This document shows, piece after piece, positions 9,297-60,500 of a stretch of DNA of 64,000 nt (its first letter is position 1; every line of letters begins with the position of its first letter). The notes under the pieces were generated by a model, which worked only from the letters and a program-made list of their open reading frames with translations, was not told the origin of the DNA and ran no database searches. The position numbers were made by a program, and so were the translations under genes. Origin of the DNA: Dioscorea cayenensis subsp. rotundata (Eukaryota > Streptophyta > Magnoliopsida > Dioscoreales > Dioscoreaceae); NCBI RefSeq assembly GCF_009730915.1, contig NC_052484.1, positions 1,054,001 to 1,118,000 of the forward strand, given 5' to 3'.

Positions 9297-9371
9297 CGCC
9301 GACCTTTTCTTTCTACATTTCAGAGTACCAAAATTAAAAAACAAAACTTCAGAGAAAAGATCGAGTTTTTC

Positions 9372-13311
<3,940 letters not shown>

Positions 13312-13706: not shown

Positions 13707-14335
13707 ATTCGTAGAATGTTCGAATTTGAGCACAGTAATAATTATGGAGCTACAGTGAAGATTAATTAGGGTTAAGTTGGGCAAATTATTTTAAAATTTT
13801 TTTAAAATTACTGTAGATCTAGTAGAAAGAGGGTTAAATGTCGTATCTCACTTTTCACTTTGTTATTATTTATCAGCATAGTGACAGACGTTCGTAGTCT
13901 TAGATGATGGATATATATATATATATATGTATGTTTATATATTTATGTACCAAAGGGTTTAGTATTAATGATATAAAACAAATGAGTGTGAGATATTTAA
14001 TGTATAGTATTTTTATTTGAACCGTATATCATGATCGTAATAAATAATAATGAATAAATTAATCTTAGTTGTCCAATTTTATTTGTATTAGATCTATAAT
14101 TGAAACACAAAAAACTTAAACTAAACCAAAATCACAGCTGAACAATCAGGGTACTATGCTCAAACACTATTAAGAGTACTGTTTATGCACCCATCTATTC
14201 CTATCTTTTTTATCTTTATTCTCCCTCAAAATTTTTTAAATCTAGGGACAAACTCCCCAAGATGATCTTTCCTATGTATATATATATATATATATTTTAA
14301 AAAGAAAATAAAGTTTAGATAAAGAGATATGGCAA
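13312..14335. other. BAM1 3' flank with microsatellites
   Basis: No gene seen. It includes two copies of a roughly 30-bp unit (GGTAATGCTCAATTTGATAT and a close variant) at 13587-13645, a (TC)n tract followed by (TA)n at 13651-13706, and (AT)n near 13911-13928 and 14277-14295. The BAM1 3' UTR must lie in the first few hundred bases. Confidence 0.55.
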
Positions 14336-14344
14336 ATGAGTAGT

Positions 14345-15349
14345 GATCCCACGGACTCGAGTCCGTGGGATCTAAAGTGCAACCGAGACGTGGCTGCTAT
14401 TCTTTTGCTTTTTATAAAAAACTATTTTTGCCAGTCTCCATGAAGCTTAAACTATAAAAATAATAAATAAAGGGTATTCCGGACATTTGCTTTAACCACA
14501 CTAATAGCTTATTTCCCTTTCTCGTTGTTTTTTCCTTTTTGTTATGCAACTCGGTGAGGCCTGCGGAGAAAAATGGTGGCTGTCGTCGCTGTCGTGGATG
14601 TTGGATTGGTTGAAGCGAATGCCCGAACAGATAAAGCAGGCCAAACGCCGCATGGCCGAGGTCAGGCCATGTGACCCACCGCACGAGGAAGCCGGGATAG
14701 TCGGTGCAGTCCAAGGTGCAGGAGTCTGGCCGGTGATCGGAGTAATGTGTTCAACTCTTGGAATAAATGAATGAATGAATAGATAAATAAATAAGTTTCC
14801 TTTTTTAGACTTTTAGATGATGTGAGATTACTTGGAATGTAAATGGTGATTTTGTTCCTAGTTAACTTAAGTTGCAGAAAAGAAAAGAGTTGTAAAGAAT
14901 GATGAATGGTTTAATTAAGTTGAAGGAAAAGCAAAGAAAAATAAAGAATGATGAATTGCAAAACCAAGTGTAACGAATGAATCAAATATCTCCCACCATT
15001 CACCCTGATAAACAATAGATATAAAAGTGGACATCACAAGGAACAAATTTCTTATAAACATCAAGACTCAAAACTCACTCAGTTAATCAGGAAAATTCAT
15101 ACAAGGAGAGACTCAACAGAAAAGAAAAAAAAAACTCAGAAAAAAAGAAGAAAAAGAAGAAGACGAAAAGAAAGGGAAAGAAGCTGTTAATTTGGCAGTG
15201 TGGTTAAAGCAAATGTCCGGAATACCCTTTGTTTATTATTTTTATAATTTAAGCTTCATGGAGCCTGGCAAATATAGTTTTTTATAAAAAGCAAAAGCAG
15301 CCACGTCTCGGTTGCGCTTTAGATCCCACGGACTCGAGTCCGTGGGATC
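14345..15349 (+). mobile_element. Non-autonomous TIR element, copy A (1005 bp)
   Basis: Both ends are the same 28-bp perfect palindrome (half GATCCCACGGACTC, centre CTCGAG; 14345-14372 and 15322-15349). Inside that, terminal inverted repeats of about 165 bp run from TAAAGYGCAACCGAGA through ATGAAGCTTAAAYTATAAAA to GGACATTTGCTTTAACCACA. The interior has a GC-rich block (about 14540-14750), then AT-rich sequence and a purine-rich GAAGAAGAAG tract. No transposase is visible. Long TIRs and a foreign GC-rich core fit a MULE-like or foldback non-autonomous element, but no target duplication was found, so the superfamily is open. Confidence 0.75.
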
Positions 15350-15386
15350 ATTACTCGTGTTATTATTAGGGATGGCCATTTGTAGT

Positions 15387-16405
15387 GATCCCACGGACTC
15401 GAGTCCGTGGGATCTAAAGCGCAACCGAGATGTGGCTGCACAGCAGCCACGCCTTTTGCTTTTTATAAAAAACTATATTTGCCAGGCTCCATGAAGCTTA
15501 AATTATAAAAATAATAAACAAAGGGTATTCCGGACATTTGCTTTAACCACACTGCCAAATTAACAGCTTCTTTCCCTTTCTTTTCGTCTTCTTCTTTTTC
15601 TTCTTTTTTTCTGAGTTTTTTTTTTCTGTTGTGTCTCTCCTTGTATGAATTTTCCTGATTAACTGAGTGAGTTTTGAGTCTTGATGTTTATAAGAAATTT
15701 GTTCCTTGTGATGTCCACTTTATATCTATTGTTTATCAGGGTGAATGGTGGGAGATATTTGATTCATTCGTTACACTTGGTTTTGCAATTCATCATTCTT
15801 TATTTTTCTTTGCTTTTCCTTCAACTTAATTAAACCATTCATCATTCTTTGCAACTCTTTTCTTTTCTGCAACTTAAGTTAACTAGGAACAAAATCACCA
15901 TTTACATTCCAAGTAATCTCACATCATCTAAAAGTCTAAAAAAGGAAACTTATTTATTTATCTATTCATTCATTCATTTATTCCAAGAGTTGAACACATT
16001 ACTCCGATCACCGCCGGACTCCGCATCTTGACTCGCACCGATCGCCCGCTTCCTCGTGCGGTGGGATCGCATGGCTCGCAGCCTCGGCCATGCGGCGTTG
16101 ACTCGCTGATCTGTTTCGGGCATTCGCTTCAACCAATCCAACATCCACGGCGACGATGACTACGCATGCTCTCCGCGACGCCTCACCGAATTGCATAACA
16201 AAGAGGAAAAACAACGAGAAAGGGAAATAAGTTTATTAGTGTGGTTAAAAGCAAATGTCCGAAATACCCTTTATTTATTATTTTTATAGTTTAAGCTTCA
16301 TGGAGACTGGCAAAAATAGTTTTTTATAAAAAGCAAAAGATGTGGCTGCTATGCAGCCACGTCTCGGTTGCACTTTAGATCCCACGGACTCGAGTCCGTG
16401 GGATC
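15387..16405 (-). mobile_element. Non-autonomous TIR element, copy B (1019 bp), inverted relative to A
   Basis: Same structure as copy A in opposite orientation, with the 28-bp palindromes at 15387-15414 and 16378-16405 and the same long TIRs. Extra sub-palindromes GCTGCACAGCAGC (left) and GCTGCTATGCAGC (right) sit just inside the ends and are absent from copy A. The GC-rich core (about 15995-16205) differs from that of copy A by several indels, while the AT-rich parts are nearly identical. No transposase is visible. Confidence 0.75.
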
Positions 16406-16556
16406 ACTACTCATAATAACACTAATGCTAATTGTAAAAACATTTTTGATTTCATAATTTTTCAATAATAATGTAGTTGATCGTAACAAGTATTAAGGAG
16501 AAAGCTCTAAAGAGCCTTAACTTAAAAAGGACAGAGAAACTTTTAATTATTTTTTG

Positions 16557-16985
16557 GGAGAATTGGTTATAAACCCCTCGAAAAATTCTATAATTGCGAT
16601 ATTTACCCTTAGAAAAATCATAATCGTAGATATATACCCTGAAAAAAATATAGGTAATTGTGGATATGCCCCTACTGTTAGATTTCGGTAATCAAACTTG
16701 ATTAACAATAGTTATAACTTGGATTAAGATATACAAAAGGACCAAAATAACTCTGGTACAACTTAAAAAAAACTTTTCAGGGTATATATGCAATGAGTAT
16801 AATTGTAATTTTATATATTTGTTGTTTGTTAATGGATGGTTTTTTCAACTAAATTTGAACTCCAGGGTATATACGCAATTACGTATATTATTCAAGAGTA
16901 TGTATGTCAATAAAACTTTTTTCATGGGTAAATATCGCATTTCAAAAATTTTTTTAAAGGGTACACCAGCAAAAAGCCCCTTTTG
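16557..16985. mobile_element. MITE-like element with degenerate inverted ends
   Basis: The left end (ACCCCTCGAAAAATTC, then TTGCGATATTTACCC near 16595) is matched in reverse complement by the right end (GGGTAAATATCGCATT near 16927, then AAAGGGTACACC). Between them are repeated words such as CAGGGTATATAYGCAAT. Small size, AT-rich core and imperfect terminal symmetry indicate an old MITE. Family not assigned. Confidence 0.5.
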
Positions 16986-18695: not shown

Positions 18696-20196
18696 ATGGA
18701 TAGCCATTTTGGATGGGGAGGTGTAGTTGATGGATGGAGGAAAGGTCCTTGGACATCTCAAGAAGACAAGCTTCTTTGTGATTATGTTAACATTCATGGA
18801 GAAGGGAGATGGAACTGTGTGTCCAACATCACAGGTATATATATATATATCTATTTATATTTATATTTATATTTATATATATAGTTTAATTAATGAATAA
18901 AGTTATATATATATATATGTTGATGTTGATATTAATGTGAAGGATTGAGAAGGAGTGGGAAGAGTTGTAGATTGAGATGGGTGAACTATCTTAGGCCAGA
19001 CTTAAAGAGAGGAAAGATAACTCCTCAAGAGGAGAACATCATCTTAGAGTTGCATGCAAGATGGGGAAATAGGTAACTAATTAATTATCCATTACATCTC
19101 TCTTTCTCTTCTCTCTATATATATATATATAATATTTTGGGTTGGTGTCAAGAATTCAAGCTTTCCTTTCATATATATAAATATGCATGTTATTCTAATT
19201 AAAAAGATAATAATTTGTTTGGTTTCTAAACTAAATAGTTTTGTAAAGTTTTCATCTTTCTAATTGACATGGATCCACTGTAATTAATGTGACAATTTTT
19301 AGTATCTCAGTTGTCACCTTAATTTCAGGGATTAATAAACACAAACAAATTTATCAAGTTCATTCATTAAAATGAATTTATTTTTTTTTAGAGACCAAAA
19401 TGTTTATTGTTATTATTTTCATTAATTTAATCTCGTAAATTCATTATAAGCAAAGCTCTAAATACTTAATATATTTAGATATGGATGCAAGCTCATGCTT
19501 TATTATTATTATTATTATTATTATTATTGATATATATATATTTTATTATTTATCTAGAGTTCAATATTGTGAATACTTGGCACTCCAATGACTTCACCCT
19601 TTTTGTTAAAAGCTAGAGTCCAACCATATTATGTTCTTTTAACCTCTCTCATTGTGTATATATATATATATATATATGTTTTATGAAATGACTTCTTCCT
19701 TTATGTAATATGTATAACTACATGTATGTATAGTACATATATACATGTATAAAGTTGAAGCTCATGGATACATTGGAATTAAATATGTAAATAATGAATT
19801 AATGGTATGCATGAAGGTGGTCAACAATTGCAAGAAGTCTTCCTGGAAGAACAGACAATGAAATCAAGAACTATTGGAGAACACATTTCAAGAAAGCCAA
19901 GTCTTCATCATCAAAAATTAACCTTCAAAGATCAAAATTACCAAAGTCTCTAATCCAACAAGATCAAAATCATGAAAGAAGATGATGAAATGATGAAAGA
20001 AACAGTGATAAATCCACAACAAGTACTACTTGAACAAACAATGGCAACACAAGACATATTGGAAGATGATGATGATGAGATGATGAAATGCATATGCCCT
20101 TTTACTAGTTTTGTTCAAGTAAATGGTGGTTCTACTTCCATTAATGAAGATTGGAATGAGGATGAAAACTGGGCTAGATTGTGGAATTTAGAGTAA
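18696..20196 (+). CDS. R2R3-MYB transcription factor
   Basis: Three exons with the classic R2R3-MYB intron positions: 18696-18834, 18943-19072 and 19817-20196. R2 carries the spaced tryptophans ([40 protein letters not shown]). R3 has [39 protein letters not shown] and RTHFKK. These helix-turn-helix repeats bind MYB-core DNA. The [19 protein letters not shown] and THFKK signatures resemble the MYB27/48/59-like group. In the exon 3 frame a stop occurs at 19983-19985 after DQNHERR, but the +1 frame continues with an acidic tail ([11 protein letters not shown] to [10 protein letters not shown]). Allowing for one extra base near 19930-19970 gives 648 nt, a multiple of three, so the longer 215-residue protein is likely. 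Intron 1 begins directly with GTATATAT repeats. Confidence 0.9.
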
Positions 20197-20356
20197 CTAG
20201 AGTTCATGTGTTTATTTCTGTTTTAAGTTTTGTTATTTATTATCTTCTTTAATTTCATGTCTCTCTAGATTAAGTAGTGCTTTTCTTCTTAAAGAAAAGT
20301 TTCATAAGAAATTTTGATATTTCACTCCTTTTCATTAATCAGTTCATCTTCCTTGC

Positions 20357-57514: not shown

Positions 57515-60500
57515 CTCCCCTGGATGCTCTACGACCAAAGGATATGCCTCGTTAAAACCTTGCTAGGAAAAACCCAAATGGGATAAAAACCCGACTAAGG
57601 AAAAAAAGAGTACACTATCTCTGGCACATTCTGAGGGTTATCGCTTCATTAAAAAAACCTTGCCTCTGAAAAACCCATTGGGACAAAAACCTCATGGCGA
57701 AGGGAAAAAGAGTACAGTCTCCCTCAAATAAATAACTTTTAACTCATATCGAAAGTACTTACATCCTTAAGTCTTCTCATCCCGATTTTGTATATAAGTC
57801 TCTGGTGAATGCACTTAGGAAGTGATTTTTGTGAATAGATCGACTTGATTCTCACCTGGATCGAATCTTTTGAACTTCTATAACGCCTTCTTTCCGGGAG
57901 ATCATGAGTGTAGAAAAATTTTTGGTGATATATGTTTCGCTCGTCACCTTTAATATAACCTCCTTGTATTTGAGAAATACAAGCATCTGTTGTCTTCATA
58001 AATTACTCTGAGCATTTGTTGTTACTCGATGGTAATTTGCGTGGATGATCAGATATGCCCAATCATAGATCGTAACCATTGGCATTCACGACTTGCTTCA
58101 TGGAGAGCTAGAATTTCAAAGATGATTTGATGAAGTAGTCAGTAAGAGTTTGTTTTTGTGGAACGCCATGAGATAGTTGTACTCATCAGTAAGAAAAATA
58201 TGTATCCGAGTCCCGAGATCGCCCTTTACGAGGATCGACTGATACCCAAAGATCGACAGAAACCCCGTGAGGTTGGATGAAGATTCTTGTCGATAGAATA
58301 AACCCGGATCCGTAGTTCCTCGTAAATAACGTAGCACATCTTTTACTCCTTTCCAGCTGTCTTCGTGTCGGTGTAGAACCGTATCTTGCTAGAAGATTTA
58401 CTCGCAAAAAGCTATATCTCGGTTTGGTATTATTTGCAAGGTACATTAATGCACCGATTGCACTTAAATATGGAGTTTCCGGACCAAGAATGATCTCTTT
58501 CTTCCCGGTGGGCGAAATGGATCTTCTCGAACATCAAGAGTTCTGACGACCATCATGCATCTCAGATGGATAAGCCTTCTCCATATTGAATCTCTTCAAA
58601 GACCTTTTCTCAGTATAGGGTTGATTGATCGCACAAATATTCCCCGAGGATAAGTGCTCGATTTGTATACCTCAGACGAATTTTGGTCTTTCCCAAATCT
58701 TTAATTTCAAATTCTTTTTCGAGATATGATCTGCAGTATGCAATTTCTGTAAGGAGTGCCTACAAGATTTAAATCATCCACATATATCGCTATCACAACA
58801 AAAACCGTTAGTATAACTTTTTAATAAACACACATGGACATATATTATCATTTTGTACCCTTTCTTTTTATAAGATATTCACCGAGACGGTTATACCACA
58901 TCCGTCCAGCATTGTTTTTAACCCATAAAGAGATCTCAGTAATTTAATAGAGTATAAATGATGATTATTTGTAATGTTTGTTTTTTTCTATATCCTTCAG
59001 TGATTTTCATATATATGTCATTTTCAAGTAATCCATACGATATGCTCGTGACAACATCCATCAACTCGCATATCTAATTTATTACTCTCGCCATGGCAAT
59101 TAAAAAAATCGAAAAAGTAATTCCATCCATTACTGAGAGTATGTCTCTTCATAATCAATACTGCATTTGAGAAAAAAACCTCGAGCAACCGGGGCCTTTG
59201 CTTTTGTATCTCATAATTTGATTATTTTTCATTTCTTTTTCTCACAAACACCCATTTATAACCGATCGGTTTTATCCTTCCGGTGTTGGCACTATCGGCC
59301 CAAACACCTCACGCTTTGATAGGGAATTTAGCTCGACTCGATAGCTTCTTTTTCCATTTTGGCCAATCATTTCTTTGTCGACATTCTTCAATGGATCGTG
59401 GCTCGGATCATTATCGGTGATTTATTTCTATATCTCGTAGCCACATCGAGATGAATATATCATTTATTTCGGGTCTCATGCCGATTCAATCTTTCGACCA
59501 TCATCTACATAGCAAATTGAATTTTCAACATTTTCGTAAATATCATCCCCTATCGATTCTTCATTAACTTGTTCCGAGGGTTTTATAATTTCCTCTTCCT
59601 CTTTACATGGGAGATCCTTTTTCTTTTATTTTTTTCTCGCTTCCCTTTTTCTAGGAGTCGAATCTTTGGCACCAATTGGTCTTCCACGCTTTTTGTCGTG
59701 GTTTATTTTCTATTTGATTTTCTTTCAATGGATTCTTAGGAATCTCACTTTCTTGCAGGGAGCATTAGCGACTGGTATATATGATTTGGTTACCATTTTA
59801 GTATCGTGAATGCATCGTGTATTTCATTTGCAATATTTTTGCAATTTAATGATCCTTTGAACTTCAAGTTCACATTCATTGGTACGAGGATCATATGTAT
59901 GTAATCGTGATGCATTCCAATCAATTTTTTTGGGCTCATTTTTGAGTAATCATTTCTCCCCTAATGCAGGGAAGACGATTCATCAAAATGACAATCTGCA
60001 AATCTTGCAGTAAATACATCCCCCAGTAATGGTTCTAAATATCGTATAATTGAAGGGGAATCATAACCAACATATATACCAAGTCTGGCTCAGGACCCAT
60101 TTTTGTACGATTTGGTGGTGGTATTGGCACATATACTCGCACAACCAAATATTCTTATATATGAAATATCGGGCTCTTTTACCCATAACAAGTTGGTGTG
60201 GTGAATATGAATTACATGCAGCTGGGTCGGATCCGCATGATAAAGTCGCAGATGCAAAAATAGTACGACACCCTCACGCACTTGTAGAGCGCTTCGCTCT
60301 TAATAACATTTGGATCGAGCAATAATCGGAGTCTTTTAATTAATGACTCCAGCTAACCCATTTTGGGTACGTACACTGAGTTACTCGGATGCTCAACATG
60401 TATTCTAACTCGCCATGTACAATAATCATAAAATGATTTTGATGAAAAATTCACCAAAGATTATCAAGACGAATCGTCTTTTATGGGATAATCTGGAAAT

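Follow-up and report, generated by a model that had tools for sequence, protein, structure and literature searches.

A head-to-head pair of non-autonomous Mutator-like elements with an exchanged target site duplication in yam: a possible product of sister-chromatid transposition

Pairs of transposons in inverted orientation are potential triggers of heritable silencing and of chromosome instability, and their origin can seldom be read from sequence. The nearest known system to the locus described here is the head-to-head VANDAL21 pair V21_4/V21_5 of Arabidopsis Tsu-0, for which alternative transposition was proposed, with spacer inversions among the reported events; that study described its reads as not long enough to resolve every event, target site duplications (TSDs) included (PMC12312487). 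For P and Ac/Ds elements, hybrid element insertion or sister chromatid transposition has been reported (PMC3744419, PMC8225341, PMC2775673), and the reports on P, Ac/Ds and Galileo name ectopic recombination, which leaves chimeric copies, as the main rival (PMC2775673, PMC3744419, PMC8225341). In the account of maize Mu killer, effective silencing goes with short antisense transcripts and failure with read-through transcripts, and a role for minor longer transcripts is left open (PMC3440606).

Here we describe a palindrome from yam (Dioscorea cayenensis subsp. rotundata) within a 64-kb window, the whole stretch of DNA that was analysed, which corresponds to C14:1054001-1118000 in a genome search covering 584 Mb in 2249 contigs. 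The palindrome consists of two 1.0-kb non-autonomous elements, u1 and u2, in opposite orientation about a 25-nt spacer (Table 1). The two units belong to one family of Mutator-like elements (MULEs) and have an exchanged TSD, and the junctions are equal in both assembled copies of the locus. We put at roughly one in two the probability that the palindrome is a non-autonomous MULE doubled by an aberrant hybrid-element, or sister-chromatid, transposition.

Architecture and assembled copies of the palindrome

The original prediction had placed the same element twice in opposite orientation, at 14345-15349 and 15387-16405, with 37 bases between. Alignment bears this out, with the full tips 7 nt further out; the 37 bases are the correct distance between the 28-bp tip palindromes, and 25 nt lie between the true tips. 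The word "near-perfect" suits part of the palindrome better than the whole: the longest gap-free arm stretch is 295 nt with one mismatch inside, but the arms align overall at 92.4% identity across 1050 columns with 48 gaps, and substitutions crowd into a GC-rich block that holds 47 of the 57 (60% GC, against 34% for the window). RIP-like decay of this block by cytosine deamination is not supported (C>T plus G>A changes numbered 18, and those in the opposite direction 15), nor is a captured gene within it (no Pfam match on three ORFs).

The palindrome is far beyond chance. An inverted-repeat search of the window at E<=1e-10, with the low-complexity filter on, returned five rows, among which the palindrome was the only one longer than 250 bp; the remaining four were the terminal inverted repeats (TIRs) of u1 and u2 themselves. 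Within-unit TIR alignments span 214 bp in u1 and 201 bp in u2, above the 100 bp taken to mark the long TIRs of TIR-MULEs, at the identities given in Table 1. Element breakpoints fall exactly at the tips in three of four cases, the fourth, on the left of u2, being 2 nt short. No structured RNA was matched in the window by Rfam at gathering cut-offs, and the 28-bp palindrome had no exact match in genome_contigs or viral_contigs.

Table 1. Coordinates of the palindrome, its junctions and the adjacent genes, in window positions
Feature	Position	Strand	Remarks
BAM1-like beta-amylase, 3' coding part	12550..13311	+	8j5d_A 2.4e-91, PF01373, ORF and stop
CAAATG, outer half of putative second (inverted) target duplication	14333..14338	+	k=6, null P 0.0104
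u1, first MULE unit	14338..15356	- (reverse relative to u2)	tips GAG/CTC, as in TSD-bearing relatives
u1 left TIR, ~200 bp	14338..14543	+	87% to u1 right TIR
28-bp perfect palindrome, u1 left TIR	14345..14372	.	
GC-rich u1 block	14541..14740	.	~60% GC, greatest arm divergence; u2 counterpart ~16001-16200
u1 right TIR	15148..15356	-	
28-bp perfect palindrome, u1 right TIR	15322..15349	.	
GTGTTATTAT, reverse complement of 10-bp TSD	15357..15366	-	abuts u1 right tip; identical in second copy
Spacer, 25 nt	15357..15381	.	reverse complement equals left-flank continuation plus TSD
CATTTG, inner half of putative inverted target duplication	15377..15382	-	
u2, second MULE unit	15382..16412	+	tips GTAG...CTC, left tip 2 nt short
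u2 left TIR	15382..15581	+	90% to u2 right TIR
28-bp perfect palindrome, u2 left TIR	15387..15414	.	
u2 right TIR	16217..16412	-	
28-bp perfect palindrome, u2 right TIR	16378..16405	.	
10-bp TSD copy ATAATAACAC	16413..16422	+	abuts u2 right tip; identical in second copy
R2R3-MYB DNA-binding exons	18696..19982	+	within 18696-18836, 18936-19073, 19815-19982

As had been predicted, the palindrome lies between a BAM1 and a MYB gene, both on the plus strand: the BAM1-like beta-amylase ends at 13311, ~1 kb upstream, and the R2R3-MYB gene starts at ~18696, ~2.3 kb downstream. Three other features of the window were observed. To the right of the palindrome, at 16581-16953, is another inverted repeat, unrelated to it and MITE-like, with 37-nt arms at 81% that lie 299 nt apart; at 58119-58533 on the minus strand, ORFs resemble by eye a copia-type polyprotein remnant, with no Pfam match on either. 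Within the unit, the region ~15005-15145 has at least 13 genome matches outside the element family among the matches listed, including five same-strand pairs ~5 kb apart that are LTR-like (for example C10:21444493 and C10:21449468) and three singles, and this region may be a captured LTR fragment.

The whole palindrome is repeated at C14:987622-989696, with no difference from the window copy at the left tip, in the spacer or at the right tip. C14 contains two contig pieces, 948687-1020280 and 1021281-1101027, both with 1000-N gaps on either side. They can be aligned in five blocks of at least 1500 columns that total ~68.8 kb at 94-98% identity. The alignment extends to both ends of the first piece and to the right end of the second, leaving ~6.8 kb at the left of the second unaligned. 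To judge from this alignment, the pieces are probably two haplotypes scaffolded in tandem, with the window in one of them; a true 80-kb tandem duplication may instead be present. We consider it very improbable that the palindrome is a misassembly of a single real unit. The noise among the mismatches is unevenly spread and confined to individual assembled units, as expected where reads align badly, and to that extent fits such an error, but an assembly slip is unlikely because the second assembled copy has identical junctions, three of them, on pieces with a gap between. Moreover, the sites that split u1 from u2 in both copies outnumber the conflicting ones (23 versus 4), and the flanks are without palindromy outside the element tips.

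These site counts come from a five-way alignment of u1 and u2 of both assembled copies plus the solo element L010. Private mismatches, of which 34 lie outside the GC block in the u1 of one assembled copy (copy A) and 29 inside it in the window u2, look like consensus noise. The 23 u1/u2-splitting sites common to both assembled copies comprise seven outside the GC block and 16 inside it, 11 of the latter within 33 bp; three of the seven are next to a hairpin deletion, where the alignment itself may have produced them. The shared differences are probably real. Conflicting sites are those with an abab or abba pattern; each of another 13 sites either had three states or set a single unit apart. 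L010 has the u1 base at 15 of the shared sites and the u2 base at eight, and a second subterminal hairpin is absent from both u1 ends in both copies while being present in u2 and L010. The TIRs provide 181 columns without gaps, of which 11 distinguish left from right ends, none distinguish u1 from u2 and none are crossed; 12/181 differ within a copy and 2/181 between copies. Because this division by end is clean and the internal parts keep the direction of the TIRs, u1 and u2 are collinear, not chimeric.

The element family and its relatives

On the evidence of their termini and relatives, u1 and u2 are members of a MULE family marked by ~200-bp TIRs, GAG/CTC tips, 9-bp TSDs, and a putative FAR1 plus SWIM transposase remnant in one 5.2-kb relative. 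Of the six relatives with both ends read, five carry 9-bp TSDs directly next to their tips, which are GAG/CTC or nearly so. The TSDs are perfect in L010 (1049 bp) and in two elements of L011 (365 bp and 42 bp), and carry one mismatch in L014 (391 bp) and L015 (1300 bp). In the sixth, L036 (5194 bp), a TSD is absent, and the tips are similar with TIRs at ~76-79%. L036 encodes FAR1 (3.4e-26) and SWIM (4.1e-8) matches in separate ORFs on one strand, which is the make-up of FAR1-type MULE transposases; no match to a MULE catalytic domain was found in the five ORFs tested. One further locus, L012, was left out of the relatives, its match being internal only and a TIR match being absent. The Prunus FaSt element (349 bp, 82-bp TIRs) was considered as a counterpart and, as described, is set apart by size (PMC12071656).

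A search for family copies with the unit, suggested along with the original prediction, was run. The tip palindrome GATCCCACGGACTCGAGTCCGTGGGATC has 45 genome sites at up to two mismatches, and a reversed-pattern control has none. Paired at <8 kb, with a 42-bp site set apart by hand, the 45 sites resolve into 18 element-like spans of 0.37-5.2 kb plus nine singles. The only abutting spans genome-wide among the 18 are those at the two copies of the palindrome locus.

The 42-bp element, at L011:8209-8250 (C4:3774208-3774249), is an observation in its own right. It consists of a tip, one 28-bp palindrome and a tip, flanked by the perfect 9-bp TSD ATATTCAAA. The tip palindrome is its own reverse complement, and the palindromes at both ends of an element are therefore also direct repeats. 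The 42-bp element was probably formed by deletion through recombination between the end palindromes of a larger MULE, in the manner of a solo LTR. Genome-wide, a 38-base pattern at up to three mismatches matched the 42-bp site and one three-mismatch site at the end of a 4.9-kb span.

The exchanged target duplication and the origin of the pair

Junctions were compared as six flank pairs in two orientations. Ordinary TSDs were rejected for u1, for u2 and for the composite, the left (L) and right (R) flanks of the units agreeing at 2/10 (L1=R1), 3/10 (L2=R2) and 2/10 (L1=R2) positions. The two right flanks, both abutting CTC tips, are reverse complements of one another at 10/10 positions. Such a crosswise match arose in 7 of 200,000 random pairs of anchored 10-mers drawn from elsewhere in the first 47 kb, and a looser null, from 12 kb of local sequence in either orientation, gave 2.1e-4 per pair. 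The TSD 10-mer occurs three times in the 64-kb window on either strand, and two of these occurrences are the two junctions.

The left flanks of u1 and u2 have CAAATG in common, inverted (null P 0.0104, allowing edge shifts of up to 4 nt), and when the spacer is reversed the left flank runs on, with the TSD at its end. The CAAATG/CATTTG inversion at these other two junctions suggests that the spacer and left flank form one continuous empty site, predicted to read ...GATATGGCAAATGGCCATCCCTAATAATAACACTAATGC.... Whatever target-duplication length is assumed between 5 and 11 bp, one deletion of 3-9 bp turns the predicted inner junction into the observed one; a second cut 9 bp wide would require a 7-bp deletion there, and the reconstruction includes this small loss at a single inner junction.

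The structure can be derived in one step, and this derivation is our own. The starting point would be a single intergenic element with the 10-bp TSD ATAATAACAC. After replication, transposase would bring together two ends from different sister chromatids, the right end of one copy and the left end of the other, and the hybrid end pair would insert ~11 bp to the left. The product would read left flank, new target, inverted element, reverse complement of the TSD, inverted bit of left flank, inverted new target, element, TSD and right flank, and this predicted order is the observed order.

An original TSD divided between two copies and inverted is an exchange that both hybrid-insertion and ectopic-recombination models predict, and the main rival is nested insertion plus inversion. 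It is possible that two separate insertions of family members, in opposite orientation and ~11 bp from each other, came first, and that the short spacer was later inverted, either when the arms recombined or when transposase acted on the two inner ends. The same exchanged TSDs would be predicted (following the logic set out in PMC2775673 and PMC8225341), and in Arabidopsis, inversion of the spacer has been reported for VANDAL21 elements lying head to head (PMC12312487). The 23 shared u1/u2 sites and the hairpin loss confined to u1 fit distinct parents, and they also count against one-step doubling, in which the sister copies would be identical at birth and later change or conversion must be invoked. 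This alternative requires two insertions within ~11 bp followed by an inversion, however, and ectopic recombination would be expected to leave copies chimeric with respect to the internal segment, whereas no TIR site was crossed and 11 split the ends. That test has little power if the parents had the same left/right differences. Collinearity of u1 and u2 favours the one-step origin but is not decisive, because two members of one subfamily look alike and because Galileo copies, too, differ between ends within a copy and match between copies; indeed, the raw TIR pattern here is that of Galileo copies judged chimeric.

Further points weigh against doubling in one step. The putative second, inverted duplication is 6 bp, not the family norm of 9 bp, and the exchanged TSD is 10 bp, not 9 bp (a range of 9-11 bp is given for MULE TSDs; PMC4334395). 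Neither of the two assembled copies is an empty allele; both are filled.

Template switching is another route, in which fold-back repair of a break at the first element would have produced a reversed copy of it and of some flank, with no second transposase reaction. Such repair would account for an inner junction that needs a single small deletion, with an overlap of very few bases. Copying need not halt at element tips, however, yet three of the four ends are exact and the fourth is only 2 nt short, and the two left-flank breaks overlap by 6 bp, as in a staggered cut. We consider fold-back repair improbable.

Sister-chromatid transposition would, if correct, provide a one-step origin for loci of the Mu killer type that can be read from an exchanged TSD, and would mean that a single aberrant transposition is enough for a MULE to create a potential trigger of its own silencing. 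The fuller reading, that a single MULE was doubled head to head in one step from sister-chromatid ends, with the product a hairpin and potential siRNA locus at birth, is one that we hold to be less likely than not. Each unit visibly has one of the two TSD copies of the first insertion beside it, so this history is testable from one empty allele, and inverted neighbours with crosswise-matching TSDs provide a rule for a genome-wide search for such events.

Hairpin capacity and comparison with known systems

A hairpin of ~1 kb had been predicted from read-through transcription, and folding supports the capacity for it: the RNA of the whole palindrome has a predicted MFE of -1714 kcal/mol, with 992 of 994 pairs spanning the spacer, and eight dinucleotide shuffles gave -499 to -519 kcal/mol. 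RNA from either direction could form this ~1-kb hairpin, which would be a possible substrate for Dicer-like enzymes and could silence closely related non-autonomous elements. Among those relatives, 21-mers in common with the arms number 400/1029 in L010 (the C1277 element), 181/345 in the 365-bp element of L011, 45/371 in L014 and 52/1280 in L015, compared with 6/5174 in L036; the BAM1 region (9338-13311) and the MYB region (18696-20200) have none. The further proposal, that the locus could silence its family or affect its neighbours, therefore stands in part. Some relatives, the 1-kb sister among them, share many 21-mers, so that silencing of non-autonomous sisters is conceivable and that of L036, in contrast to what is proposed for Mu killer, hardly so. 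The absence of shared 21-mers gives no support to homology-based silencing of the two genes, to which methylation may spread.

Whether the locus is a working hairpin of the Mu killer kind that silences its family seems to us doubtful. Fold energy, arm pairing and relatives rich in arm 21-mers (400/1029) are consistent with such a role, but the three unit ORFs tested had no Pfam match, and the one relative fetched that bears a putative transposase has 6/5174 21-mers in common with the arms. The effective silencing by Mu killer is, in addition, linked in its description to short antisense transcripts, and the read-through model is itself disputed on that account (PMC3440606). The two loci are alike in being inverted MULE duplications beside a host gene with the potential for a long hairpin RNA; Mu killer, as reported, has ~1.3 kb of mudrA on each side, and the yam arms have no transposase that we found (PMC3440606).

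MULEs with multiple TIRs, like this locus, have more than one TIR pair per locus, but they are described with recognisable outer TSDs, and some were amplified as units (PMC3310237). The outer flanks of the yam palindrome match at 2/10 positions, and no other abutting spans occur among the 18. The P and Ac/Ds events resemble it in their expected product, an inversion or inverted duplication that has an element copy on each side, exchanged TSDs and breakpoints at the tips (PMC3744419, PMC8225341, PMC2775673). Those accounts concern P and hAT (Ac/Ds) elements, whereas the present case would involve a MULE, a distance of ~11 bp and one incomplete junction.

Inversion 2z3 of Drosophila buzzatii likewise has two opposite Galileo copies with exchanged TSDs, and its TIRs are reported as ~6% apart within a copy and >99% alike between copies, figures to be compared with 12/181 and 2/181 here (PMC2775673). 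The Galileo copies were found to be chimeric in relation to known relatives, with middle segments in opposite orientation, which supports ectopic recombination in that case (PMC2775673); u1 and u2 are collinear, and no parental elements were found for them.

In titles and abstract openings, a scope lying mostly outside the subscription literature, we found no description of a MULE pair with exchanged TSDs among the matches listed. The VANDAL21 pair is closest in form, with two MULEs in opposite orientation about a short spacer, and differs in its spacer of ~200 bp, in its activity in met1 plants and in the somatic nature of its events, as far as these are described (PMC12312487). The yam palindrome, by comparison, has a spacer of 25 nt, is present in both assembled copies, and retains a readable, exchanged 10-bp TSD.
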